NCBI GenBank assembly: GCA_014706295.1
Contig: JACSVZ010000042.1
Span: forward strand, 62,001-126,000
Reading direction: 5' to 3'
DNA: 64,000 bases
DNA from: Lycocorax pyrrhopterus obiensis
Taxonomy: Eukaryota; Chordata; Aves; Passeriformes; Paradisaeidae
Every line of letters starts with the position of its first letter. Position 1 is the stretch's first letter. A model generated the notes under the pieces. That model saw only the letters and a program-made list of their open reading frames with translations. It did not search any database and was not told the DNA's origin. Shown one piece after another: positions 59,713-62,456 of this stretch. The position numbers and the translations under genes were made by a program.

Positions 59713-62456
59713 CTAGGTGAGGGTGTTGGAGTAGAAGCTGAGGCTCTCGGAGACCGTCTTGGAGTCGCTGCGGGAGGAGCCGTTGGAGGTCATGTCCAGG
59801 GAGAGCCGCTTGGCCCGGCCGGGCTCGTCGGGGTCGTCGTCGGCCGCGCCGAGCGCCGAGGCCACGGTGGTGGTGTCCATCCTGCTGATCTTGGACACCG
59901 AGCTCTGCGTGTGCAGGAACCGCGCCGAGCGCAGCTCCAGCCCCTCGTACTCCCCGGCGCTGACCCACGGGCACCAGCGGAACGCGTGCTTGAATCCCAG
60001 CCGGAACCTGCCGGACGAGGAGGGGGAGAGACATGGAGGTGGACAAAGGAATGGGATGGAGATGGACAAAGGAACGGGATGGAGGTGGACAAAGGAATGG
60101 GATGGAGATGGACAAAGGAATGGGATGGAGGTGGCCAAAGGAATGGGATGGAGATGGCCAAAGGAATGGGATGGAGGTGGCCAAAGGAATGGGACGGAGG
60201 TGGCCAAAGGAATGGGATGGAGGTGGCCAAAGGAATGGGATGGAGGTGGCCAAAGGAATGGGATGGAGATGGACAAAGGAACGGGATGGAGATGGACAAA
60301 GGAATGGGATGGAGATGGACAAGGAAGGGATGGAGGTGGACAAGGAATGGATGGAGGTGGCCAAAAGGAATGGGATGGAGGTGGCCAAAGGAATGGGATG
60401 GAGGATGGACAAAGGAACGGGATGGAGATGGACAAAGGAAATGGGATGGAGGTGGACAAAGGAAATGGGATGGAGGTGGCCAAAGGAATGGGATGGACGT
60501 GGCCAAAGGAATGAGGAAAGACATGGACATGGATGTGGCCAAAGGAATAAGGAAAGACATGGACGTGGCCAAAGGAATGGGAAAGCCATGGACATGGACA
60601 TGGACATGGCCAAAGGAAGAGGGAGATAAAGCTGAGCTTTGCTAAACATGACAAAATTGTGATTTTTCACTGAGGGGAGGAAAACCCCACTGAGAAATGC
60701 AAAACCCACTGAGAAATCCCAATTAGGAGCTGGGATTGCTTCGATTGATGTTTTCCCTCCAAATCCAAAGGGATTAGGAAAGACTTCAGGTGACGATTGT
60801 GCCAATCCCGCATCTGCTGGAAGCGGCAGAGGGCGGCACAGAACCATCCCGAAAAACCCCCTCCAGCCCGCTCCTCATCTCCCGCATTCCCGCATTCCCG
60901 AGGCGCTCCCGGAGCCTCCCGCTGCCCACCTGTCGTTGAGGCAGCAGTAGATGATGGGGTTGTACATGGTGGAGCTCATGGCCAGCCACATGACGGCCAG
61001 GTAGACCTGCTGGATGAACCTCCGCAGGTACCACTCGGGCCGCAGGTACTGCAGCGTGAAGTACACGTGGTAGGGCAGCCAGCAGAGCGCGAAGGTGCAC
61101 ACCACGATGATCATCATCTTCACCACCTGGAATGGGGGGAGAACGCTCCAGCAGCCGTTCCACCCTCTGGAGTGGCCTTTCCAACCGGGAACGCGGGGTC
61201 AATATCCTGGTTAAACCACGTTTGTGGAGGAGGTGTCCTAAACGCATCCATCGGTCATTCCACCCTCTGGAATGGCCTTTCCAACCGGGAACGCGGGGTC
61301 AATATCCTGGTTAAACCACGTTTGTGGAGGAGGTGTCCTAAACCCATCCATCGGTCATTCCACCCTCTGGAGTGGCCTTTCCAACCGGGAATGCCGGGTC
61401 AACATCTTGGTTGAGCCACGTTTGTGGAGGAGGTGTCCTAAACCCATCCATCGGTCATTCCACCCTCTGGAATGGCCTTTCCAACCAGGAATGTGCGGTC
61501 AACGTCTTGATTGAACCCCATTTGTGGAGGAGACGTCCACAGGACTCTGCTCCATCTTCAACCACCAAGTCCTCACCTGCTCCAACCCCTGATGAAGGGT
61601 TTGGGGCTGGGATTGGCCATGGATTATGGATCCAGCCGTGCCCGGAATTCCTTACCTTCTGCTTCTCTGAGACCTGCTCGTGTTTGGGATTGGACAGGAG
61701 TTATGGATCTGTCCACACTCAGAATTCCTTACCTTCCATGTAGCCGATACCTGCTCGTGGTTGGGATTGGCCAGGAATTCTGGATCCAGCTGTGCCCGGA
61801 ATTCCTTACTTTCCTCTTGTCTGAGACCTGCTCGTGGTTGGGATTGGATGGGAATTCTGGATCCAGCCCGTCCCGGAATTCCTCACCTTCCTCTTGGCTG
61901 GCACCTCCTCATGGTTGGGATTGGATGGGAATTCTGGATCCAGCCCCTCCTGGAATTCCTCACCTTGTGGAGACTGGGCAGGAATTGTGGATCCAGCCCC
62001 TCCCGGAATTCCTCACCTTGTGGAGACTGGGCAGGAATTGTGGATCCAGCCCCTCCCGGAATTCCTCACCTTGAGCTTGGCCACGACCTGCTTATGGTTG
62101 GAATTGGCCAGGAATTGTGGATCCATCTGTGCCCGGAATTCCTCACCTTGTGGAGATTGGCCAGGAATTGTGGATCCAGCCCCTCCCGGAATTCCTCACC
62201 TTGTGGAGACTGGCCAGGAATTGTGGATCCAGCCCCTCCCGGAATTCCTCACCTTGTGGAGATTGGCCAGGAATTGTGGATCCAGCCCCTCCCGGAATTC
62301 CTCACCTTCCTCTTGGCCGACACCTGCTCGTGGTAGCGGTCGGAGGAGTCCCCGGGGATCTCGCTGGCCCAGAGCGTGCGGCCGACGGCGGCGTAGGCGC
62401 AGCCGATCACCAGCAGCGGCAGCAGGTACAGCAGGACCGTCATGGAGAAGTGGTAC
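59713..62456 (-). CDS. TACR1: TACR1, substance P (NK1) receptor, exons 3-5 (partial)
   Basis: Class A GPCR at the plasma membrane for tachykinins, Gq-coupled. Three coding exons in transcription order: 62456-62306, 61126-60930, 60007-59713, ending in TAG. The first joins an upstream exon at phase 2. Exon 3 encodes TM5 and loop 3; the signature EIPGDSSDRYHEQVSAKRK matches NK1 and differs from NK2 and NK3. Exon 4 encodes TM6 (CWLPYH) and TM7 with NPIIY (NPxxY) and the NK-type MSSTMYNPIIYCCLN. Exon 5 encodes helix 8 (FRLGFKHAFR) and a Ser/Thr-rich tail ending SLSFYSNTLT. The Cys pair usual after helix 8 in NK1 is reduced to one Cys (WCPW). The third extracellular loop is diverged. TM1-TM4 exons are beyond the right edge (1.5 kb of intron 2 is present). 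NK1 identity is strong. Confidence 0.9.
60030..60640. repeat. Minisatellite, ~23-bp unit (TACR1 intron 4)
   Basis: About 26 copies of AAAGGAATGGGATGGAGGTG plus GCC/GAC, ending about 25 bp from the exon 5 acceptor (exon start 60007). The + strand is purine-rich, so the sense strand is pyrimidine-rich. Confidence 0.96.
61150..61520. repeat. 100-bp tandem repeat, ~3.7 copies (TACR1 intron 3)
   Basis: Copies start at TTCCACCCTCTGGARTGGCC and include TTTGTGGAGGAGGTGTCCTA. The period is 100 bp with few substitutions. Sits next to the exon 4 acceptor. Confidence 0.95.
61640..62304. repeat. Minisatellite built from the TACR1 exon 3/intron 3 boundary
   Basis: About ten units of 53-76 bp. Each contains GGAATTCCTCACCTT or GGAATTCCTTACCTT, followed in the better copies by sequence matching the end of exon 3. 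It abuts the true donor (exon end 62306). Details are in the findings. Confidence 0.93.

Follow-up and report, generated by a model that had tools for sequence, protein, structure and literature searches.

Where an intron opens with one true 5′ splice site and seven exact copies of its nine nucleotides within 420 nt, why should the upstream donor win? This question is posed by intron 3 of TACR1, the substance-P receptor gene, in a 64,000-nt stretch of Lycocorax pyrrhopterus obiensis DNA (contig JACSVZ010000042.1; the whole stretch is called the window, and all positions are counted within it). The locus offers a natural case of splice-site competition. The first 698 bp of the intron (61608-62305, minus strand) were found to form a tandem array with 53- and 77-bp steps, delineated with Tandem Repeats Finder, a direct-repeat search and a listing of the units. 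Very probably, the array is a minisatellite that was born at the exon–intron junction, a so-called mirage, and that is for the most part a tolerated passenger of the gene.

The junction itself was defined from the protein that it encodes. TACR1 exon 3 (62306-62456, 151 nt; the gene and the array both read on the minus strand) was translated into 50 residues, for which the best match in the Protein Data Bank was the substance-P receptor, 7p00 chain R (E 7.3e-22), which we take to be the human receptor. The last 11 residues, RYHEQVSAKRK, were identical to those of the substance-P receptor in solved structures. The true 5′ splice site, AAG/GTGAGG (62300-62308, with GT at 62305-62304; the slash marks the exon–intron boundary), joins exon 3 to exon 4 (60930-61126, 197 nt, reading VVKMM...CLNDR) at the acceptor TTCCAG/, and this join keeps the frame open through to the TACR1 stop. 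The coding part of exon 5 up to the stop codon occupies 59713-60007 and reads FRLGF...FYSNTLT. When 62456-62306, 61126-60930 and 60007 onward were joined, a single open frame was obtained with its stop after ...SLSFYSNTLT. Given this open frame and the match to the receptor, the placing of exon 3, of its donor (GT at 62305) and of the acceptor of exon 4 can be regarded as secure at the sequence level.

A search of intron 3 for GTRAGG returned the true donor and ten copies in register with it, eleven in total. The GT dinucleotides of the ten decoy donors lie at 62252, 62199, 62146, 62069, 62016, 61963, 61886, 61809, 61732 and 61655, so that the steps from donor to donor are 53, 53, 53, 77, 53, 53, 77, 77, 77 and 77, followed by a final intron part of 48 nt. 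Tandem Repeats Finder reported the array as three intervals, 61608-61966, 61928-62073 and 62099-62308, and together with the direct-repeat search it gave the same periods, plus longer combined ones such as 154 and 183. Five decoys, which follow 53-bp steps, are the first three (62247-62255, 62194-62202 and 62141-62149), the fifth (62011-62019) and the sixth (61958-61966); all read AAG/GTGAGG, and their 53-type tails match the exon end at only 8 of 28 positions. The other five are preceded by 29 nt of exon-like sequence. Compared with the last 28 nt of exon 3, these tails were identical at 20 positions for decoy 4 (tail and donor at 62064-62098, AAG/GTGAGG), 24 for decoy 7 (61881-61915, AAG/GTGAGG), 24 for decoy 8 (61804-61838, AAA/GTAAGG), 23 for decoy 9 (61727-61761, AAG/GTAAGG) and 21 for decoy 10 (61650-61684, AAG/GTAAGG). 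Seven decoys, as exact copies of the 9-mer, score the same as the true site, decoys 9 and 10 score slightly higher and decoy 8 is weaker; the scores come from a simple position-frequency model, and only their rank order is meaningful, whereas the identity of the AAG/GTGAGG sites is independent of them.

The units of 77 bp share one layout, 48 nt of intron start followed by 29 nt of exon-like end (five of five), and the repeat ceases after the last 48-nt intron part, which ends CCAATCCCA at 61608. This is as expected from tandem duplication of exactly that segment. The exon end that seeded the array, ACCACGAG...GAGGAAG, was placed at 62306-62334 from the extent of its similarity to the 77-type units. 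No microhomology beyond one base was evident at the join when the unit listing was read. The 53-bp form is 24 nt shorter; of the exon tail it has retained the two outer ends, CCAC and AAG. A strong donor, GTGAGG at 61576 with a spacing of 79, was considered as a further unit and excluded, as mononucleotide shuffles reached its local alignment in 243 of 500 and 193 of 500 cases. An earlier, sequence-only reading of this DNA had ended the exon at 62306, as the translation and the joined frame confirmed, and had placed five exon-like copies where they were indeed found. Its estimate of about ten decoys within 650 bp was exact, as there are ten and the farthest lies 650 nt from the true donor; the 15-25 nt of coding sequence that it thought had been captured was too short, the similarity extending over up to 29 nt.

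Two backgrounds were used for the likeness to the exon. Among 126,310 28-mers from both strands of the window, with the array region excluded, the best matched the exon end at 19 of 28 positions, and directly upstream of another GTRAGG (82 background sites) the best reached 13 of 28. In local alignments the last 60 nt of exon 3 matched the array better than in any of 300 dinucleotide shuffles; no match to the array was seen for the first 91 nt, as 116 of 300 such shuffles scored as well. The seeding at the 5′ splice site of exon 3 that had been proposed earlier thus withstood the shuffle test that was to refute it, and chance likeness to the exon was ruled out by the 28-mers and the shuffles. 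In addition, AAGGTRAGGAATTC with at most one mismatch occurred 11 times in the 64 kb, each time inside the array, compared to a chance expectation of 0.03. These results make the derivation of the array from the exon 3–intron 3 junction well supported. Copying evidently ran from the exon into the array, since the solved structures of the substance-P receptor have the identical RYHEQVSAKRK. Minisatellites abound in this window, where 66 merged tandem arrays cover 16,834 of 64,000 bp at 61% G+C, and because of this the presence of an array as such is unremarkable; its starting place is unusual. Only this one of the 66 arrays held two or more donors scoring at least 6; a second mirage elsewhere in the window, with weak donors or of acceptor type, is conceivable.

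The divergence between units suggests how the array may have grown. Over their first 46 nt, the core, the five 53-bp units, among which the true first intron unit is counted, were 96-100% identical, and the five 77-bp units were 72-96% identical. The simplest reading would be that the 77-bp units are older and that a younger 53-bp form has been spreading beside the exon. A 77-bp segment, with 29 bp from the end of exon 3 and 48 bp from the start of intron 3, would have been duplicated in tandem and then duplicated again by slippage or unequal exchange, two processes that one assembly cannot separate. One unit would then have lost 24 bp, nearly all from the exon-like part, and the resulting 53-bp form would have spread through the half nearer the exon and been homogenised there. 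The 53 bp of intron directly behind the true donor belong to the young 53-bp family, homogenised with the array, because their core is 96-100% identical to those of the other four 53-bp units. What is seen here is a working splice site whose own flank has been homogenised as a member of a minisatellite.

The differences between the exon-like copies and the exon give a faint additional hint. Between the five copies and the last nine codons of the exon, 27 differences were counted, 7, 6 and 14 at codon positions 1, 2 and 3, a count that is a lead only, as the copies are not independent. The V codon, GTG in the exon, is GTC in three of five copies, and the S codon, TCG in the exon, is TCA or CCA in three of five (61656-62098). 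Synonymous changes in the living exon since the copying may account for some of the third-position differences, in which case the array would keep an older version of the exon.

Splicing at any of the ten decoys, or retention of the intron, extends the reading frame by 18-19 residues, VRNSGRGWIHNSWPISTR with an added W at the first decoy, before a stop is reached. For the ten decoys, the premature stops lie 190-790 nt upstream of the exon 4/5 junction. By the distance rule of nonsense-mediated decay, these messages are expected to be degraded, and if translated they would yield a receptor without transmembrane segments (TM) 6-7. We expect that the true donor, paired with the exon 3 acceptor across the normal 151-nt exon, would mostly win; under exon definition, a normal exon length and a real upstream exon favour the true site, and the splicing reported for the amphioxus mirages and for the human ABCA7 array, both described below, is a precedent in its favour. 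If a decoy is used now and then, most probably the first, this would extend the exon by 53 nt, bring in the early stop and probably expose the message to nonsense-mediated decay. An effect of the array on TACR1 splicing is plausible. Predicted RNA structure may add to the advantage of the true site. At three settings of the folding window the predicted accessibility of the true site fell at percentiles 0.82, 0.65 and 0.83, and among the seven decoys with the same 9-mer, 7, 5 and 6 were predicted to be less accessible than it. Conversely, the two AAG/GTAAGG decoys were more open than the true site at all three settings and AAA/GTAAGG at two of three, and every 9-mer had a low predicted accessibility of at most 0.11. 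Structural hiding of the decoys could therefore be a mild tendency in the model, one that helps the true site against most of them.

Several points weigh against a junction-born array that is mostly tolerated. Correct splicing of TACR1 is an assumption, and the copy number may be wrong, as there is one assembly. The 77-bp unit at 62146 is flanked by 53-bp units and most resembles the distal unit at 61809 (91%), for which reason the history of the array seems not to have been simple outward growth; the order of 77 before 53 was inferred from divergence alone. In a pair of DOK7 donors, the intron-proximal one is reported to be preferred, though it is also the stronger one (PMC5585400). Here all decoys are intron-proximal, and the DOK7 rule would favour them, by which analogy frequent decoy use is conceivable. 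In human ABCA7, which carries a variable number tandem repeat (VNTR) in intron 18, longer arrays are described as being associated with reduced expression and more frequent skipping of exon 19, and in one brain region the alternative transcripts together exceeded the canonical one in most samples (PMC5954066). By analogy, 'passenger' may be too weak a term.

A rival reading, which we consider very improbable, is that the decoy donors are functional, either by binding the U1 small nuclear ribonucleoprotein (snRNP) or through regulated use that leads to message decay or to a receptor truncated before TM6-7, and so tune TACR1 output. The GT is kept in ten of ten units, seven of which are exact copies of the true 9-mer while two have a slightly higher score, and all ten lead to a stop, which is what a poison extension would do; donors would, however, be kept in any young array seeded at this place. 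In ABCA7, array length is reported to go with expression and splicing in some cases (PMC5954066). Conservation within the units was also compared. A 14-nt block containing the donor had 2 of 14 variable columns compared to 20 of 35 in the remainder (Fisher p 0.01, or 0.02 when six rows, D3 and D6-D10, are used), but this block extends past the donor and was chosen after inspection. The donor 9-mer itself was not significantly more conserved, with variation in 2 of its 9 columns and in 20 of 40 in the rest of the core (p 0.16), which placed it 12th among 41 windows. Divergence is greater in the exon-like tails than in the cores, and selection to keep the tails was rejected on a mean identity among the five copies of 0.693 in the tail versus 0.787 in the core. 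On balance, the conservation evidence would fit a passenger better than a maintained device, at little statistical power. A more specific proposal, which we regard as quite improbable, is a lineage-specific regulatory ladder, in which U1 competition at eleven near-identical donors would set how much TACR1 message survives and copy number would tune the dosage of the substance-P receptor or of a truncated receptor; it is likened to ABCA7, where array length goes with expression and splicing.

An assembly artefact, made by false duplication or collapse, is very unlikely to account for a large part of the array. There is a single assembly, and the near-identical 53-bp cores are hard for assemblers, but the 77-bp units differ by 4-28% in the core, which argues that they are not assembler-made copies. 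Growth from intron sequence alone, with the exon-end likeness due to chance or convergence, is scarcely credible, as the absence of an exon-like tail at five of the ten decoys is outweighed by five tails that share one register relative to the splice site and match the exon better than any of the 126,310 background 28-mers.

The surroundings of the array were also searched. A second array (61158-61532, 100-bp unit, 3.8 copies) fills most of the remaining intron 3, and tandem repeats make up 1073 of the 1179 bp of the intron. Some units of this second array carry CCATTCCAGAGGGTGGA, similar to the acceptor of exon 4, CCATTCCAG/GTGGTGA. A mirror-image mirage at that acceptor was considered, but the 22-nt likeness was reached by 7 of 300 shuffles and that of the first 40 nt of exon 4 alone by 54 of 300, which is unconvincing after several tests. 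A third, mainly 23-bp array (60033-60598), pyrimidine-rich on the minus strand, stops 25 nt short of exon 5, whose polypyrimidine tract it may provide in part; the likeness of the exon 5 acceptor to it was no better than in shuffles (114 of 300). No known RNA family was found in 60800-62700 at gathering thresholds, and the splice-site array had no match among phage records; an 18-base pattern of it had one match in each of nine IMG/VR stretches, most likely by chance. A Pfam scan covered 30001-60000 in six frames and 1-29997 in a single frame of the minus strand. On the minus strand, matches to Cnd2 (condensin complex subunit 2) spanned 38863-48388, at approximately 38863-39396, 42506-42652, 45523-45642, 47337-47471 and 48290-48388; those at 42506 and 48290 were individually below the curated cut-off, and the one at 38863-39396 may span an intron. 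The gene is presumably NCAPH. A weak ARID match on the minus strand (30977-31081, E 7.7e-4) was below the Pfam cut-off.

Repeats of this kind have precedents, and the novelty that the sequence-only reading implied was overstated, given boundary-spanning repeats in amphioxus (PMC3087553, PMC3902484) and a donor-bearing array in ABCA7 (PMC5954066). In the open-licence PMC literature no report on TACR1 or on a bird with such an array was met, in searches that did not use TACR1 itself as a term and barely targeted birds. Judged by its anatomy, the TACR1 array would belong with both the amphioxus mirages and the ABCA7-type donor VNTR. In amphioxus, tandem repeats that span exon–intron boundaries were named mirages in Adh3 and are also described in the globins BflGb6 and BflGb9, troponin C and PGBD5; the BflGb6 units are reported to be 81-100% alike and to evolve in concert, and regular splicing is reported to be undisturbed, with support from reverse transcription polymerase chain reaction (RT-PCR) (PMC3087553, PMC3902484). 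The TACR1 units likewise hold exon- and intron-derived sequence (29 nt and 48 nt), but at only five of ten decoys, and the array likewise adjoins the authentic boundary and repeats its splice signal, in eleven GTRAGG in register. It differs in that it is in a vertebrate, in having ten extra donors compared to the 6 and 3 repeat units described for two BflGb6 haplotypes, and in having two unit lengths, of which the apparently younger one has lost the exon part.

In ABCA7, the array starts with the GT that serves exon 18 as its real donor, and splicing from the next unit along extends the exon by 25 bp and shifts the frame; approximately 2% of the measured isoforms are reported to retain one array unit, a share that does not vary with array length (PMC5954066). 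The canonical TACR1 donor, GT at 62305, likewise begins the first unit of its array. The ABCA7 unit differs in being 25 bp long and starting at the GT, with no exon tail mentioned in the part of that report used here, and population variation in length is described for ABCA7. In human IFI6 (6-16, G1P3), a minisatellite supplies several used donors and gives three mRNA species (Turri et al. 1995 as cited in PMC4526556). The likeness to TACR1 lies in a minisatellite that offers several splice donors, nine of ten TACR1 decoys having a predicted score at least equal to that of the true site; the difference is that downstream units are described as really used in IFI6. We take the IFI6 unit to be 12 bp long. 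TACR1 intron 3 is apparently old, and we assume that an intron at this place is also found in TACR1 of other vertebrates. Internal tandem repeats at exon–intron boundaries of human genes in segmental duplications, by contrast, are described as sitting in recent paralogues and as able to form new introns, and there minisatellite expansion can alter splicing (PMC2812944). With ABCA7, IFI6 and these repeats as the vertebrate precedents found, the TACR1 array extends the mirage, a kind so far mainly of the lancelet, to a vertebrate receptor gene.
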